Source: Salipiger thiooxidans (GTDB taxonomy: Bacteria; Pseudomonadota; Alphaproteobacteria; Rhodobacterales; Rhodobacteraceae). Taken from it: a stretch of 64,000 nucleotides of DNA. Location of the stretch: assembly GCF_900102075.1 (NCBI RefSeq), contig NZ_FNAV01000001.1:124001-188000 (forward strand). The letters run 5' to 3'. Below, piece after piece: positions 16,609 to 48,810 of this stretch (the first letter of the stretch is position 1; every line of letters starts with the position of its first letter). A program made the position numbers and the translations under genes. Below the pieces are notes generated by a model. It was not told the origin of the DNA. It did no database searches and saw only the letters and a list, made by a program, of their open reading frames with translations.

Positions 16609-18168
16609 TCAGGGGGCGGGCGGGAGCAGGCCGCGGTCCTGCAGGAGGATGAGCATGTCGACGACCGTCTCCGGGCTCACGTCGATCGAGGCCTTCATGG
16701 CGACGCCCAGCCCGCCCTCGCCGATCTCCTGCGGGGCGCCGTAGTCGAAGCGCGGCTTCAGCACCGCCAGCTCCGGCGGCAGCTCGGGGCAGAGCGCGGC
16801 CTCTTCCAGCACCAGCCCCACCGCCTCGAGCACCAGCGCCCGCGCCGCCTCGAGCCTGCCCGAAGCGGTCTGGATCTGGCCCAGCGCGCCCGGCGGATCG
16901 CGGGTGAGGTCGAGCAGCCGGAAGACCACGCAGCCCTCCACCAGCTCGCCCGAGAGATCCGCCCGCACGTCGACGTCCTTGGTCTCTTCGAGCACGCCGC
17001 GTTCCCACGAGCCCTCGCCCGTGCGCACGCAGTCGAAGCTCTCCATCTCCAGGGACGCCCTGGCGATCACCGCGGTGCCGTCGGCCTCGGTCTCGAAGCG
17101 CTCGATGGTGACGTGGCCGCCGCAGCTGTCGATCACCTCCTGCCCGGTCAGCAGGTCGGGAAGGCGCTTCTGGATGCCGCCGAGATCGAGCAGCGCCTCC
17201 ATCCCGATCCGGGTCGCATCGACCGGGGAGAGCCGCGCGTCGATGCCGTAGGCAAGATCCTCGCCCTTGACCTCGAGGCTGTTGTCGAAGTCGAACCGCA
17301 CCTGCCCCGGCGGCGCGGGCACGAAGCGCAGCGCGCCGTCGCCCTCGGCGTTGGCGCCGAGCCACGCGAGGATGGCGATCAGGTTGTCGGCGCCGATATC
17401 TGCGGACCCGGAGAGCGCCATGCCGACCCCGCCGCCTCCCACCTCGCGCACGCCGAGCGTGGTGAACTGCGGCTCGAGGATGGCGATGGGTTCCGGCAGC
17501 GTGGGGCAGACGAGGTTCTCGGCCAGCACCGTCTCGGCCTTCTCGAGAATGGCCGCGCGCACCCGCTCGGTGAAGCCGAAGAGCGTGGCGAGCCCGCCGA
17601 GGATCCCGCGCGGCTTCAGGCCGAGATCCGCCAGTTCGAGCCTGATGCAATTGCCGGCAAGACCGGCGCGCAGCCGGGCATTCACATCGACGGTCTGCGA
17701 GATCATGCGGAAGCCGCGGCGTTCCTCGGGCGTGTCGCGGTCCTTGCAACGGTAGAGCGAGGCCTTCACCGAGGCACCGGCGCGCAGCACGTCGCCCTCG
17801 GCCTCGATGCCGCCGAAATCGACGTTGAGCCCGATGCTGCAGCTTGCCTCGATGGGCCCGGAGAGCAGCCCCGGCAGCGCCTTCTGCAGGCCGCGCATGT
17901 CCCCGAAGGCGTTGGCTCCAAGGCGGGTCCCCCCCGCGGGCGCGAGGCCGAGGTAGAAGGCGAAGGGCACCTCCTGCCCGCGCGCGGAAAAGCTCTGGGC
18001 GACGCGGAAGGCGACGTCGCCCGCGTAGGCCGCCGGCGGCACCGGCGACTGCAGGTCGACCTCGCGGAAGGTCATCGCGTCCTCGGCCGAACCCGTGCAG
18101 GCGGACAGCGCGAGGATCGCCGCGCAGACCGACGCGATGAATGGAGTGCCGTTTCTCTTGCCACGCAT
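16609..18168 (-). CDS. Lipoprotein of two tandem cysteine-rich units, function unknown
   Basis: A 519-residue protein with a lipoprotein signal (LALSAC, lipid-attached Cys24). After it, two homologous halves follow. Each has four cysteines: 110, 141, 174 and 221 in the first, 349, 380, 413 and 460 in the second. The spacings are identical (31, 33, 47), so the halves are offset by exactly 239 residues. Shared phrases include LQKALPGLLSG/IQKRLPDLLTG and CPTLPEPIAILEPQF/CPELPPELAVLKPRF. This implies an internal duplication with probably two disulfides per unit, in the periplasm. I do not recognise the family. It converges on the acyltransferase remnant and stands alone. Confidence 0.8.
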   Translation of the reverse strand: MRGKRNGTPFIASVCAAILALSACTGSAEDAMTFREVDLQSPVPPAAYAGDVAFRVAQSFSARGQEVPFAFYLGLAPAGGTRLGANAFGDMRGLQKALPGLLSGPIEASCSIGLNVDFGGIEAEGDVLRAGASVKASLYRCKDRDTPEERRGFRMISQTVDVNARLRAGLAGNCIRLELADLGLKPRGILGGLATLFGFTERVRAAILEKAETVLAENLVCPTLPEPIAILEPQFTTLGVREVGGGGVGMALSGSADIGADNLIAILAWLGANAEGDGALRFVPAPPGQVRFDFDNSLEVKGEDLAYGIDARLSPVDATRIGMEALLDLGGIQKRLPDLLTGQEVIDSCGGHVTIERFETEADGTAVIARASLEMESFDCVRTGEGSWERGVLEETKDVDVRADLSGELVEGCVVFRLLDLTRDPPGALGQIQTASGRLEAARALVLEAVGLVLEEAALCPELPPELAVLKPRFDYGAPQEIGEGGLGVAMKASIDVSPETVVDMLILLQDRGLLPPAP

Positions 18169-18308
18169 GTCTCACCCGCCGTTGCCGCTGACAGTCTGGC
18201 ACAACCATGCCACGAGCACAGCCATTGGCAAACCTGTTAGTGCCTTGCGCGCGATGCGTGCCGCCCGGGCGGGCGGGCGGAAACGCCCTCGCCCGTGCGG
18301 TGCAGAGT

Positions 18309-18518
18309 TCAGCAGTCGCGGCAGGTGCGCAGGCCGACGAGGCTGTAGAGCGGGCAGTTGCCCACCACCGCCGTCACCGCGAAGACCGCGGCCACGGCGA
18401 GCGCGAGCCAGTGCAGAACCCCGGCGGCGGCGAGGCCGGTTCCGAAGGCCACCCAGACCAGGATGGCTGCAAGGACAATGCGCAGCGCCCGGTCGAATTT
18501 GCCCATGTTGGTTTTCAT
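18309..18518 (-). CDS. DUF2892 (YgaP-type) small inner-membrane protein
   Basis: A 69-residue protein, MKTNMGKFDRALRIVLA, with two helices (about 12-30 and 33-52) and the family ending GNCPLYSLVGLRTCRDC. Its conserved cysteines are in the pattern NCP and C-RDC. The family is often associated with sulfur (rhodanese) proteins. The start is set by AAGGAG ten bases upstream. A 13-bp palindrome centred 71 bases upstream is shared with the gene at 19430-20638 and probably binds the neighbouring Crp/Fnr protein. Confidence 0.88.
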   Translation of the reverse strand: MKTNMGKFDRALRIVLAAILVWVAFGTGLAAAGVLHWLALAVAAVFAVTAVVGNCPLYSLVGLRTCRDC

Positions 18519-18582
18519 GTCGTGCTCCTTGGCGGGAATCATGTGATGCCCTCGTCATCGCATGACATGCCGCTTGCGGACG

Positions 18583-18595
18583 GTGACTTGGTCAC
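18583..18595. promoter_or_regulatory. Crp/Fnr-type operator, copy 1
   Basis: GTGAC-TTG-GTCAC, a perfect 5-bp inverted repeat around three bases, lies between the Crp/Fnr stop and the DUF2892 gene. The same 13 bases, plus flanking CG and A, recur at 20694-20706 in front of another membrane-protein gene. Position and symmetry fit activation by a Crp/Fnr dimer, most simply the one encoded between the two sites. Confidence 0.7.
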
Positions 18596-18606
18596 AGAGC
18601 CGCGTC

Positions 18607-19278
18607 TCAGGAGGCCCCGGCGGCGCGGACCAGACGCTCGAGCCCCTCGCGCCCGATGATCTCGACCTGCCCGCGCGCCTGTTCGATCCAGCCACGCCGG
18701 TGGAATTCGGCAAGCGTGCGCGAGATCACCTCGCGCGCGGTGCCAAGCTCGGTGGCCAGCACCGCATGGGTGGCGCGCACCACCCCCGCGTCGTCCGCCA
18801 GTTCGAGCAGGCGCGAGGCAAGGCGCACGTCCATCCGCTGGAAGACGATGTCGTCGATCAGGGTGAAGAGATCGGTGATCCGCCGCGAATAGGCCGCGAA
18901 GACAAAGCTGCGGAAAAGCTTCGAGCGGCCCACGAGGTCGTCGAAGACGGTGCGCGGGATGACCGCGGCGGTGACGTCGGTCTCGGCGATGCCGTCGGCC
19001 GAATAATCCTCGAAGGCCAGCATGCAGGCGGTGGTCAGTACGCAGCTCTCGCCCGCGTGCACGCGGTAGAGAAACACCTCGCGCCCGGTGTCCGAGCGCT
19101 GCTGCACCCGCACGGAACCCTCGAGCAGCAACAGCAGGTTGTCCGCCGACTGCCCCGGCGCAAAGACCTGCGTGCCGGCGGGGACGTACACCACCTGGCT
19201 GCCCCGAGCCAGGTCCGCGCGGACGTCCGCGGGCAAGCCTTTCAGGCCCTCAAAACGGTCAATCCAGCTGTCATCCAT
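18607..19278 (-). CDS. Crp/Fnr-family transcriptional regulator
   Basis: A 223-residue regulator starting MDDSWIDRFEGLKG. The cyclic-nucleotide-binding fold covers about 15-130 (QVVYVPAGTQVFAPGQSADN, then LLLLEGSVRV). A long dimer helix follows, and then a winged helix-turn-helix (ATELGTAREVISRTLAEFHR). There is no N-terminal cysteine cluster of the FNR iron-sulfur type, so oxygen sensing by that route is unlikely. A heme, a redox thiol or a small molecule may be the signal. The open frame extends upstream but is arginine-rich noise. Two identical 13-bp palindromes near it are its likely targets. Confidence 0.92.
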   Translation of the reverse strand: MDDSWIDRFEGLKGLPADVRADLARGSQVVYVPAGTQVFAPGQSADNLLLLLEGSVRVQQRSDTGREVFLYRVHAGESCVLTTACMLAFEDYSADGIAETDVTAAVIPRTVFDDLVGRSKLFRSFVFAAYSRRITDLFTLIDDIVFQRMDVRLASRLLELADDAGVVRATHAVLATELGTAREVISRTLAEFHRRGWIEQARGQVEIIGREGLERLVRAAGAS

Positions 19279-19429
19279 CGGTCTGCTCTTCTGTCTGCGG
19301 GAGGGCGGAAGATCGGCAAGCGGCCCCGAAAGCGACGTTCGCGCAGGAGCCGCCCGACGACAAGCGCGGACGGCCCTTGGGTGGGGCGCGGCCCATCGCC
19401 GCGCATGTGGCCCGACGCTGCGGGCGGCG

Positions 19430-20638
19430 TCACTCCGCCGGCGAGGCGACAAGCTGCGCGCGGCCGAAGTGGCGGCGGTTCAGCACCAGCATCAGCACGA
19501 TCATCGCGACCTGCGCCGCCAGCGCGATCCCGGTGAGCGCCCAGTAGGCCAGACCGAACCTGGCGACGAGCCCGGCGGCGACCAGCCCCTTGTTGATCCA
19601 GAACTGCATCATGACCGACAGCGCCACGCCCGGGCAGATCAGCGCGTAGCTGCCGACCGAGGTCTCGGAGCCGCTGATGAAGCGCCGGATGTAGCCGGTC
19701 GCGCGCAGCACGGTGACGCCGAAGAGCGCGAAGAGCAGTTCGAGCGACAGGAATTGGGTGAGCATCGTCAGCATGTCGCCGGCCGAGCCATGGCTCTCGA
19801 AATGCACGTGCAGCCCGTGGTCCTGCCGGATGAGCAGGATGCCCAGCACCGTCATCAGCGGGATGACGATCATCAGGGTCGGCGCCTGCTCGACCGCGAC
19901 GCCGTTCTCGAGCATCGAACGGATGCCGAGCACCATGCCCACCGCGGCGATCACCACGGCGGCGACGAGGAAGAAGGTCGAGGCGATGATGGCGATGCCC
20001 GCGGTCAGCGTGGTCCCGCTCATCGCGCCGGGGGCCGAGAGGCCGACGCCGACCATCGCGAGCGAGAAGGCGGGCAGGAGCTGCGCGAAGGAGTTGTTGG
20101 CCTTGCAGTCGAACCCGCCGCTGCCGATCACCCGCCCGAGGAACCCGCCCAGCTGCCGCAGCGCCAGCGCGCCGATGGCGAGGAAGGCGGCGAGCGCCAC
20201 GGGGAAGAGAAATTCGACGACCGACCAGAGCCCCGGCACGAAGACGAGCCCGAGGATGAAGGCCACGTTAACCGACATGGCAAGCGCCAGCGGCAGGGCC
20301 ATCATCTGGGTCTGCGCATTGCTCGCGCCCAGCGACTGGCCGCGCTCGGAGGCCACGAACGGCCCGACACGGCGCAGGTTCCAGGCCAGCAGGTAGAGGT
20401 TCATGGCACCGAAGATGGCGATGCCCGCCGCGGCGAGGGTGATGGCCACGGTCCGCAGCGGACTGCCGGCGCCGAGCGCCGCGGCGATGTCCTCGGAGAC
20501 CGGCACGCTGCGGCCGGGGTGCGGGATCCAGAACATCAGATACATGAAGAAGGTGACGGCCAGCCCCCCTGCCCCGACGGAGGCGAGGAAATAGAGCGGG
20601 GACCAGGTGTCTGCGGGGCGGGTCGGAATGCGTGGCAT
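19430..20638 (-). CDS. Multi-spanning inner-membrane protein, function unknown (possibly TsoY-like)
   Basis: A 402-residue protein with about ten to twelve hydrophobic segments and no clear soluble domain. It opens MPRIPTRPADTWSPLYFLAS, and a conspicuous FDCKANNSFAQL phrase lies at about residues 178-190. The overall shape recalls SLAC1/TehA-like channels and the poorly known TsoY (seleno)protein family, but neither assignment is secure. GAGGAG precedes the ATG at 20638. A perfect 13-bp Crp/Fnr-type palindrome is centred 62 bases upstream, identical to that before the DUF2892 gene, so the two are probably co-regulated. Confidence 0.8.
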   Translation of the reverse strand: MPRIPTRPADTWSPLYFLASVGAGGLAVTFFMYLMFWIPHPGRSVPVSEDIAAALGAGSPLRTVAITLAAAGIAIFGAMNLYLLAWNLRRVGPFVASERGQSLGASNAQTQMMALPLALAMSVNVAFILGLVFVPGLWSVVEFLFPVALAAFLAIGALALRQLGGFLGRVIGSGGFDCKANNSFAQLLPAFSLAMVGVGLSAPGAMSGTTLTAGIAIIASTFFLVAAVVIAAVGMVLGIRSMLENGVAVEQAPTLMIVIPLMTVLGILLIRQDHGLHVHFESHGSAGDMLTMLTQFLSLELLFALFGVTVLRATGYIRRFISGSETSVGSYALICPGVALSVMMQFWINKGLVAAGLVARFGLAYWALTGIALAAQVAMIVLMLVLNRRHFGRAQLVASPAE

Positions 20639-20693
20639 GGCGAGTCTCCTCAGGATCTGACGCCAGTCTCGCATGGGGGACGCCCGGGGAACG

Positions 20694-20706
20694 GTGACTT
20701 GGTCAC
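20694..20706. promoter_or_regulatory. Crp/Fnr-type operator, copy 2
   Basis: GTGAC-TTG-GTCAC again, in the 86-base gap between the TPR gene stop and the membrane-protein start. It shares 16 contiguous bases with copy 1. A site this precise in two short gaps around one regulator gene is strong circumstantial evidence for a small regulon. Confidence 0.7.
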
Positions 20707-20724
20707 ACGGGCGGCATCCCGGTG

Positions 20725-22359
20725 TCAGGCCGCCCCGCGCCGGCAGTAGCAAGAGGCGCGCACCGGCACCTCGGCCCTGGCGCGGGCCTTGTCGAGCTGA
20801 CGCCCGATGTGCGCCGCCTCGACCTTTTCGCCGCGGCGCACGAGGCATTCGTGCAGCCCGTGCAGGCTCCAGACATTGCCCGGGTGCTGGCAGGCGCGCG
20901 CCAGCGTGTCGTCGAGCCCCAGGTCGGCGCGGTAGACCGCCTCCGCCTCGCCGTATTGCCCCGCGTCGAGCAGCAGCGCGCCCAGCGCGTGCCGCGTCGG
21001 CTGCATCCAGCCCCACGGCTCGTCATAGGGCAGCGCGTCGTCGAGCGCGACCGAGCGCCGGAGATGCGCGAGCCCAGCCTCCTTGTTGCCGCGCTTGTAC
21101 TCGAGCTCGCCCAGCATCATCGCCTCGGCCACCCCGAGAATGTCGCGCCCGGTGTTGTTGAAGAGCATACGGCTTTCGGGCAGCGCGTCGCGGGCCTGAA
21201 CGAACGCCGCGGCCTCTGCGCTGGCCTCGGTGCTGCGCCCCTTGTTGGCCAGCGCCACGGTGCGGGCGTAGCGCATCACCGCGGTGGTCATGGCGTAGAG
21301 CTCCGCGTCTTCGGGCAGCGGCTCGGCGAGGATCGCGTCCCACATGCCGAAGCGGATGTAGACGTGCATGTTCATCGGCACGAAAGCCTCGAGCCAGTCG
21401 GCGAACTGCCGCAGCACCGGCTCCTCCGGAAGGTTGGCAACCAGCTCCGCCGCGGCCTCGAGCGCGGGGGCGGGCTGGCCGAGGAACATCGCCCCGTAGA
21501 TCTTGAAGTGGTAGTTGTGGCACCGGTAGACGGTGTAGAAATCCCCGGCCCCCTCGCGCGCGACCCAGATCCTGTCGGCCTCGATGGCCCGCGAATTGCG
21601 CGCGACGACGTTCTGGTAGTCGCCGCAAAGCACGTCGATATGGGTGGCCATGTGCAGCAGGTGCCCGGCATCGGGCGCCAGCGTGCTGAGCCGGTCGCCG
21701 TGGCGCAGCGCCAGCTCGGGATGCGGCGACATCTCCATCAGGTGGATGTAGAAATGCAGGAGCCCGGGATGGTCCCAGGCCCCGGGCAGCGTGTCGAAGG
21801 CCTGTTCGAGCAACGCGCGGGCCTCGACCGTGTCGGCGCCCCGGGCAGCCTTGCCGGTGGCGAGGTCCCAGAGCTGCCAGGGCGTGCGGCTCATCATCGC
21901 CTCGGCGCAGAGCGCGGCGACATCGCAATCCTCGGGGTGGGCCGCCCGCAGCGCGCGCATGGCGGCGGCATAGGCATCAAGGAAGGGCGCGATATCCTCG
22001 ACCGGCTCCGCGGGGAAGCGCTTGCGTAGCGCCTCGACAAGCTGCGCCTCGACCGGCGACATGGCGGCGTCTGGCCCGATCGCCTCGAGCGCCGCGTGGG
22101 CAGTGGCGAGCGCCGCCGCCTTGTCCTCCGGCTCCATCGCCTCCCACGGCAGGTTGTAGTTCGGTCCCGAGGCCGCGGCGATGCCCCATTGCGCCATGGC
22201 GCAGTCGGGATCGGCCTCGAGCGCCTGTCTGAAACAGCGCGCCGCCGCCTCGTGGTTGTAGCCGTAGAGCCAGGTGAGCCCCTGATCGAACCAGAGCTGC
22301 GCCGTCTCGGATGAGGTCGTGACGCTCCGGCCGAAACGTCCAAGGTCATAGCGCTCCAT
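20725..22359 (-). CDS. Tetratricopeptide-repeat protein
   Basis: A 544-residue, probably cytoplasmic protein (no signal peptide) made of helical TPR-like repeats. The clearest are at about 20-60 (TAQLWFDQGLTWLYGYNHEA, then AARCFRQALEADPDCAMAQW) and near the C-terminus (ALLLDAGQYGEAEAVYRADLG). An HFYIHLMEMSPHPE segment and HxATHIDV (about 215-260) are typical of a family otherwise of unknown role. The start MERYDLGRFG is preceded by GGGAGG. It ends 19 bases before Crp operator copy 2 and could be transcribed with the membrane gene or alone. Confidence 0.85.
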   Translation of the reverse strand: MERYDLGRFGRSVTTSSETAQLWFDQGLTWLYGYNHEAAARCFRQALEADPDCAMAQWGIAAASGPNYNLPWEAMEPEDKAAALATAHAALEAIGPDAAMSPVEAQLVEALRKRFPAEPVEDIAPFLDAYAAAMRALRAAHPEDCDVAALCAEAMMSRTPWQLWDLATGKAARGADTVEARALLEQAFDTLPGAWDHPGLLHFYIHLMEMSPHPELALRHGDRLSTLAPDAGHLLHMATHIDVLCGDYQNVVARNSRAIEADRIWVAREGAGDFYTVYRCHNYHFKIYGAMFLGQPAPALEAAAELVANLPEEPVLRQFADWLEAFVPMNMHVYIRFGMWDAILAEPLPEDAELYAMTTAVMRYARTVALANKGRSTEASAEAAAFVQARDALPESRMLFNNTGRDILGVAEAMMLGELEYKRGNKEAGLAHLRRSVALDDALPYDEPWGWMQPTRHALGALLLDAGQYGEAEAVYRADLGLDDTLARACQHPGNVWSLHGLHECLVRRGEKVEAAHIGRQLDKARARAEVPVRASCYCRRGAA

Positions 22360-48195: not shown

Positions 48196-48684
48196 TCATT
48201 CTCCTGCAATCTCGTCCGGGGCCGCGTTCCTTGCGGCTCCGGGCTCACCGAGCGCCTTGCCCGCAGCCACCGGGTCGCGCAGCAGGTCCTGCAATGTCAG
48301 CGACTCGATCAGCAGCAGGTAGCTCCAGAAGATTTCGCCGAAGACCCGGCGGAGCTGGCAGGTTTCCTCGTCGTCACAATCCTCGCAGCGCCGGTAAGAG
48401 CGGCGCGACAGGCAGGGCAGCGGCGCGATGGGGCCGTCGATCTGTTGCAGGAGCTCGCCCAGCGACACCTTCGACGGCTCGCGGATCAGGAAGTACCCCC
48501 CTGCCCGGCCCCGGCGCGCGCCGAGATAGCCCGCCTTGCGCAGATCCAGAAGAATATGCTCGAGGAATCGCTTCGGCGCGCCGGAGCGCTGCGAGACCTC
48601 TTCGATGGTCAGCGCCGCGCCCTTTTCGAGCGCCCCGAGCGTCATCAGCGATTTCAACGCATATTTGGTCTTCTGGGTGATCAT
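48196..48684 (-). CDS. Rrf2-family regulator with cysteine cluster
   Basis: A 162-residue regulator. The winged helix covers 1-80 (MITQKTKYALKSLMTLGALE, SGAPKRFLEHILLDLRKAGY, RRGRAGGYFL). Cysteines at 91, 100, 103 and 109 could hold an iron-sulfur cluster, as in RirA (which uses three cysteines in this region) or NsrR/IscR. RirA controls iron uptake in rhizobia. Here a siderophore operon follows on the same strand, so iron sensing is plausible, but sulfur/cysteine control is an alternative. It is divergent from an Lrp-type gene across an AT-rich gap. Confidence 0.88.
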   Translation of the reverse strand: MITQKTKYALKSLMTLGALEKGAALTIEEVSQRSGAPKRFLEHILLDLRKAGYLGARRGRAGGYFLIREPSKVSLGELLQQIDGPIAPLPCLSRRSYRRCEDCDDEETCQLRRVFGEIFWSYLLLIESLTLQDLLRDPVAAGKALGEPGAARNAAPDEIAGE

Positions 48685-48810
48685 ATCACGAGTAAATCAC
48701 CAAATTCGTGGCTGGAGAAGTCGTCATTTAGTTAATTCACGATAAACTCGGTAGACTTATTGTTAATTTGAGGCATCCTCGGAGCACCGACACGCAAACG
48801 AGGCTGACCG
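48685..48810. promoter_or_regulatory. AT-rich divergent promoter region of Rrf2 and Lrp genes
   Basis: A 126-base gap much richer in A and T than its surroundings. It holds AGTTAAT-tcacg-ATAAACT, a 7-bp dyad with one mismatch, and the segment TTATTGTTAATTTGAGG just before the Lrp leader. Lrp-type proteins favour such DNA. Exact start sites cannot be set. Confidence 0.45.

Follow-up and report, generated by a model that had tools for sequence, protein, structure and literature searches.

In CRP, a Glu and an Arg of the phosphate-binding cassette contact cAMP, and the R-E-x-x-x-R pattern of the recognition helix reads GTGA. Sites of class II Crp-type activators, FNR and FixK among them, centre near -41.5. 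To our knowledge, the described Crp/Fnr operators (CRP, FNR/FixK, NtcA, PrfA, and CprK) have an even, N6-type layout. Heme sensors of this kind include DNR, HcpR, and CooA, whose heme ligands are Cys75, His77, and Pro2.

The persulfide-related regulons of SqrR and BigR (ArsR family) and of FisR share the persulfide dioxygenase and SQR target pathways with the locus described here, but these regulators belong to protein families other than Crp/Fnr. In the accessible portions of two sources, SqrR and BigR are repressors and FisR is a sigma-54 activator (PMC9774590; PMC12170894). SqrR is also treated in the accessible part of a third (PMC9995734). The best solved relative of the regulator, both by sequence (E = 3.4e-23) and by fold, is a Crp/Fnr protein of Eubacterium rectale (PDB 3dv8). 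This protein has a C-x5-C pair at the same place but is 27% identical, and its entry title, 'putative regulator', gives no function. Among the titles and abstracts of the open-access literature, which leaves most subscription papers outside, no paper was found on a Crp/Fnr regulator of this operon or on this operator, and the available part of PMC10936201 contained nothing relevant to either.

The locus lies in a 64,000-nucleotide stretch of the Salipiger thiooxidans genome, referred to here as the window. Its regulator resembles CRP in fold, in its recognition helix, in the GTGA half-sites of the putative operator, and in their class II position. However, this operator is one base shorter (N5 rather than N6), T83 and Y92 replace the Glu and Arg, and Cys79 lies in the cAMP pocket. 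FNR and FixK belong to the same superfamily and share class II activation, but the four-cysteine Fe-S ligand set of FNR is, in agreement with an earlier note on this DNA, absent from the window regulator, which has two cysteines only, 79 and 85. We consider it reasonably probable, from sequence comparison, that the protein is an activator of the Crp type that acts on an odd-spaced operator and serves sulfide/persulfide defence.

Two Palindromes Around a Crp/Fnr Gene

In the direction of transcription, the minus strand carries operator 2, a TsoY-family gene, the Crp/Fnr gene (crp in what follows), operator 1, and a DUF2892 gene. The features are:

18309 to 18518, minus strand: DUF2892/YgaP-like transmembrane protein, 69 aa (Pfam PF11127, E = 5.6e-19)
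18554 to 18562, minus strand: candidate extended -10 of promoter 1, TGCGATGAC, 27-35 bases past the dyad, score 7.7
18580 to 18598, minus strand: putative operator 1, 19 bp, dyad at 18589, reading TCTGTGACCAAGTCACCGT on the minus strand, precedes the DUF2892 gene
18607 to 19278, minus strand: Crp/Fnr-family regulator, 223 aa, with Cys79, Cys85, and the recognition helix GTAREVISR (PF00027, PF13545)
19430 to 20638, minus strand: TsoY-family (seleno)protein, 402 aa (NCBIfam NF047644), predicted SLAC1/TehA fold
20665 to 20673, minus strand: candidate extended -10 of promoter 2, TGCGAGACT, at the same dyad distance as in promoter 1, score 7.7
20691 to 20709, minus strand: putative operator 2, dyad at 20700, reading CGTGTGACCAAGTCACCGT on the minus strand, precedes the TsoY-family gene

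Pfam and NCBIfam searches bear out the earlier assignment of a Crp/Fnr gene between the two sites, with the sites placed before DUF2892 and membrane-protein genes. The regulator matches PF00027 (N-terminal cNMP-type domain, E = 3.5e-13) and PF13545 (C-terminal Crp helix-turn-helix, E = 1.3e-15), and fold matches agree with its place in the Crp/Fnr superfamily. The DUF2892 protein scores 68.5 bits against PF11127, whose gathering cut-off is 25.3. The membrane protein, previously described as having 10-12 helices, can now be assigned to the TsoY family (NF047644, 504.9 bits; cut-off 150); its score against the selenoprotein TsoY model NF047643 is 54.9 bits, under the cut-off of 250.

The 13-mer GTGAC-TTG-GTCAC stands at 18583-18595 and 20694-20706, where the earlier note had placed it, and the identity between the sites extends to 17 bases (18580-18596 and 20691-20707), one more than the sixteen it had counted. 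The genome scan that it had proposed for the 13-mer yields exactly these two copies in 5,868,215 bases and none in the reversed-sequence control. The site's first base is 65 bases from the likeliest start codon for DUF2892 (ATG at 18518) and 56 bases for TsoY (ATG at 20638), each with a strong ribosome-binding site; the former distance falls in the reported range of 60-75 bases and the latter below it. Operator 1 scores 28.3 (training mean 27.3) and is itself among the 83 training sites, whereas operator 2, outside the training set, scores 18.9.

Matches to GTGAC-N3-GTCAC with up to one mismatch are not significantly enriched in the window (3 found, 1.8 expected), and seven exact matches occur in the genome. 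The significance of the palindromes thus comes from their exact repetition, their rarity, and their conservation in relatives. The relaxed pattern GTGAYNWNRTCAC has 12 matches in the genome and 1 in the backward control. A wide regulon in the Salipiger genome was rejected, as 8 of the 10 matches besides the two operators overlap called genes, and the two operators are the only convincing sites. This agrees with the small Crp/Fnr regulon of membrane proteins proposed earlier, here DUF2892 and TsoY. Autoregulation of crp by its own operator was likewise rejected: just 1 of 110 loci has a site in the 300 bp 5' of crp, and the window has none. No terminator-like site was found in 18150-20800, so transcription from the tsoY promoter could extend into crp.

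Conservation of the Operator and Promoter Geometry

Conservation was assessed in 110 loci whose regulator orthologues share 54-100% identity; 30 of the loci came from the same family and the other 80 from scanning named GTDB records. Six pairs consist of the same DNA, leaving 104 distinct loci. Between -40 and +400 of the crp stop, the operator is exact in 72 of the 104 and has one mismatch in 12 (84 in total); base-shuffled regions give 0.09% exact matches and 1.5% with up to one mismatch. An operator score of at least 15 occurs somewhere in 94 of the 110 loci and in none of the 110 reversed loci; it is absent from 16. When the regulators are clustered at 70%, 15 of 17 clusters have the operator, whose consensus is T-Y-K-GTGAC-N-W-N-GTCAC-M-R-A.

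The spacing of this site is unusual. Of the distinct loci, 82 have GTGA-N5-TCAC in the 400 bp 3' of crp, and 0 of 104 have the CRP spacing, N6. Across spacings of 0-12 in the 110 loci, N5 occurs in 86 and every other spacing in at most 3. The FNR/FixK operator TTGA-N6-TCAA was found 3' of crp in 0 of 110 loci. The accessible part of PMC4999443 gives the FixK/FnrN motif. The earlier contrast with the FNR pattern stands, and that with CRP stands for the spacing, but the half-site GTGA is that of CRP and the recognition helix is CRP-like. The helix G[TS]AREV[IV]SR is kept in all 104 orthologues. The shorter conserved operator raises the question of how a dimer would be arranged on the DNA.

The module extends to more distant relatives. 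In a hand-chosen sample of 20 loci whose crp is 37-44% identical, the site is exact in 15 and has one mismatch in 4 (one of them 547 bp away), and a DUF2892 gene is present in 19. The pattern YKGTGACNWNGTCACMR has 61 sites in 46 of 149 genomes (backward control, 5), and 16 of the 61, counted by hand, are no further than about 0.8 kb from a homologue or fragment of crp. In one genome (G027:C73:9559-9890), a broken crp fragment with 61% identity and two stops lies near an intact operator.

Promoter geometry, which is absent from the earlier note, was derived from 83 crp-linked promoters, defined as distinct sequences with an operator of at most one mismatch and aligned on the dyad. TGnnA begins 27 bp past the dyad in 50 of the 83, compared with a mean of 1.2 and a next highest count of 15 at other offsets; it is missing from exactly +27 in 33. 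Read as an extended -10, this element would place the dyad near -42, the class II activator position. On spacing, these promoters thus resemble class II Crp/Fnr-dependent promoters, with site and -10 at a fixed distance and with predicted starts. In the window, +1 is predicted near 18547 for DUF2892 and near 20658 for tsoY. Both window elements exceed the training median (7.7 vs 6.8), and each is found only in the direction of its gene. The two promoters also share seven identical bases, CATGCGA, 25-31 bases past the dyad; an in-register run of this length arose in 81 of 20,000 shuffles. Ten operator-bearing tsoY promoters lie outside the training set. All ten carry A at +31 and six carry TG at +27; two of the ten have poor -10 scores.

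The tsoY operator follows the distribution of a close crp. In 107 of 394 genomes of the family, tsoY exceeds its family cut-off. The comparison covers 104 of the 108 genomes in which TsoY matched; in the other four (G147, G216, G381, and G390) the match is partial or weak. With crp classes assigned by hand and a close crp defined by E at or below 1e-60, the operator precedes tsoY in 10 of the 24 genomes that have a close crp, in 0 of the 38 whose only crp is distant, and in 1 of the 42 that lack crp. One of the 38 scores 14.7, just under the threshold of 15, and the sole positive without crp (G236) has its operator 454 bp from the TsoY match and no -10. Fisher's test for 10 of 24 against 1 of 80 gives p = 7e-7, a value made optimistic by the kinship of the genomes. 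In 14 of the 24 genomes with both genes, no operator is apparent upstream of tsoY. As a general feature of tsoY, the operator was rejected (11 of 104 in all). None of the first 30 tsoY loci reaches a score of 15 before tsoY, and four hold a match with at most one mismatch elsewhere. In three loci (L162 in G140, L163 in G110, and L164 in G035), a second Crp/Fnr gene, 30-36% identical to the window regulator, lies about 0.2 kb from tsoY; here too an operator precedes tsoY, and the close crp is about 6-13 kb away.

Overall, the regulator-operator module is real and widely kept, and it combines an unusual spacing with a class II promoter geometry. What is said here of operator and promoter very likely holds, the geometry being strongly supported by the alignments.

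Candidate Target Genes, Probable Signal, and Predicted TsoY Fold

In 76 of the 104 distinct loci, the 1.2 kb 3' of crp contain a DUF2892 signature, accompanied by the operator in 71. In many loci DUF2892 is followed by a YeeE/YedE-like pair (PF04143, PF20398). The same operons encode a metallo-beta-lactamase-fold protein, a BLH sulfurtransferase-SQR-like fusion, and a SulP transporter, with neighbour families named from cluster representatives. The best NCBIfam match of the metallo-beta-lactamase-fold protein is the dioxygenase part of Blh, at 391 bits under a cut-off of 625 that is set for the two-domain protein, and the SQR-like matches score 201-210 bits, under the curated cut-off of 525. 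The operator also precedes an SQR-like gene (L090), a persulfide dioxygenase-like gene (L044), and tsoY (L055). It stands before cydA in four loci (L081, L084, L093, and L107, the last a weaker site with one mismatch), with a fair -10 in L093 only and poor scores in the other three. The cydAB terminal oxidase is known for sulfide tolerance. In these four loci crp lies downstream of cydB. In the accessible part of one report, a DUF2892 gene of Azospira suillum is up about 10-fold during sulfide oxidation, and its deletion has a minor effect only (PMC5358917).

Judging by these annotations, operator targets in related marine Rhodobacteraceae are largely sulfide and persulfide genes, which makes persulfide the best guess for the signal; we regard sulfide/persulfide as a moderately probable signal of the regulator. 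The earlier suggestion of a new signal agrees with this, as a signal different from those of CRP and FNR is probable and the genes found in relatives suggest sulfide/persulfide, although low oxygen, NO, or metals could also be the signal. The Salipiger genome itself has its persulfide dioxygenase-like, YeeE/YedE-like, and BLH-type genes elsewhere, and they lack the operator; the best operator scores in the three regions fetched are 11.9, below 8, and 8.8, respectively. The link to sulfur thus comes only from relatives, and the regulon in this genome is probably just DUF2892 and tsoY.

In an HMMER alignment to M. tuberculosis CRP, read by eye, the cAMP-contacting Glu and Arg correspond to T83 and Y92. 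By this loss and by the absence of N6 operators (0 of 104), the regulator differs from CRP proper. Cys79 is invariant in 104 of 104 distinct orthologues and in 20 of 20 distant relatives. The loss of the cAMP contacts, together with an invariant Cys79 in the old cAMP pocket, makes cAMP an unlikely ligand and Cys79 a candidate sensor, a role to which we give roughly equal weight for and against. Of the 104 orthologues, 94 have exactly two cysteines, and the second cysteine of C-x5-C is found in 97 of 104 near orthologues and 3 of 20 distant relatives. Its loss in 17 of 20 distant relatives ruled out a two-cysteine polysulfide bridge as a general mechanism. In the structural model of the regulator, built on an alignment of 55 sequences, residues 83-90 have low confidence.

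The TsoY model (pLDDT 91; alignment of 32 sequences) resembles the SLAC1/TehA anion channels. Its structure comparison gives 22 SLAC1/TehA-type entries with Z of 26-31 and rmsd of about 3.0 over about 300 residues; the next entries have Z of 20.4 (a designed protein) and 14.1. The fold comparison thus places TsoY with SLAC1/TehA, whereas the Pfam sequence comparison does not: PF03595 (SLAC1) gives no match up to E = 10, in a search in which HMMER filters drop most weak matches. Identity over the aligned structures is about 8-13%, and the best Foldseek E value is only 2.4e-3. In one relative (L037), a SLAC1/TehA-cluster gene is placed similarly to the TsoY gene and has an operator, with a weak -10. 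Given the predicted fold and this gene, export of an oxidised sulfur anion, perhaps sulfite, is a reasonable guess for TsoY. TsoY appears in a table of selenoproteins in the accessible part of PMC13188914. The family, listed in NCBIfam without a stated function, gains from this regulon a predicted anion-channel fold and a testable sulfide/persulfide pathway.

Mechanism and Alternative Explanations

In the mechanism we propose, the palindromes would serve as operators for the Crp/Fnr protein whose gene lies between them. A regulator dimer would bind the odd-spaced TYK-GTGAC-NWN-GTCAC-MRA, centred near -42, and would, in class II manner, activate rather than repress a promoter that has an extended -10 (TGn). 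In the window, the genes so controlled would be those of DUF2892 and TsoY, a membrane protein with a predicted SLAC1/TehA-like anion-channel fold that may transport an anion such as sulfite. The protein would most likely answer to sulfide-derived persulfide or polysulfide, with Cys79 in the former cAMP pocket as its likely sensing residue. Within this proposal, the operator, the promoter geometry, the target genes, the loss of the cAMP contacts, and Cys79 have support from sequence. The most specific version falls somewhat short of probable: a distinct Crp/Fnr subfamily on base-centred GTGA-N5-TCAC, acting as a single-cysteine persulfide-sensing activator, with TsoY among its targets as a SLAC1-fold exporter of oxidised sulfur. 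If true, a Crp-type persulfide activator would form a new branch beside SqrR, BigR, CstR, and FisR.

The same regulator, operator, and promoters could instead serve a gas or redox signal, with Cys79 as a ligand of the sensing heme or metal. This is unlikely, although an invariant Cys79 paired with a second cysteine that 7 of 104 near and 17 of 20 distant relatives lack would suit it, as would cydAB behind the operator, which also fits NO or oxygen. Cys79 falls in the same region as Cys75 of CooA. However, His77 and Pro2 of CooA have no evident counterpart in the regulator sequence, and most scanned neighbour families of known role are sulfide/persulfide genes. That the regulator is mainly a repressor, released by its signal, we hold to be improbable. 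The known persulfide regulators SqrR and BigR are repressors in the accessible portions of the sources (PMC12170894; PMC9774590), but the centre of the site near -42 and its constant distance to an extended -10 argue for activation, as a repressor needs no fixed spacing. A consensus scan of 18150-20800 also found no sigma-70 promoter-like site. We are therefore fairly confident that the regulator is an activator at these sites.

It is very improbable that the site belongs to another transcription factor and lies near crp incidentally. Binding by the Crp protein is our reading of the sequence, and the site is 3' rather than 5' of crp, which would allow such a factor. However, the operator before tsoY goes with the presence of a close crp in the genome, the recognition helix suits GTGA half-sites, and the order crp-site-DUF2892 persists to about 40% identity. 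A chance repeat, which the unremarkable number of one-mismatch matches in the window might suggest, was rejected: the 13-mer has exactly two genome copies, both 56-65 bases before a gene, and the site is conserved in 84 of the 104 distinct loci.

A very strong intergenic operator match in the same genome (L005, G000:C35:51363-51379) is an operator-like palindrome without a clear target gene or a good -10 in either direction. Directly upstream of the tsoY locus, on the same strand, a protein with TPR matches (20725-22359), for which an NCBIfam search gave no match, ends shortly before operator 2. GTGATCATATCAC, at 48677-48689 of the window, overlaps the start codon of a regulator gene that we take, from its sequence, to be Rrf2-like, and this overlap is probably a coincidence.
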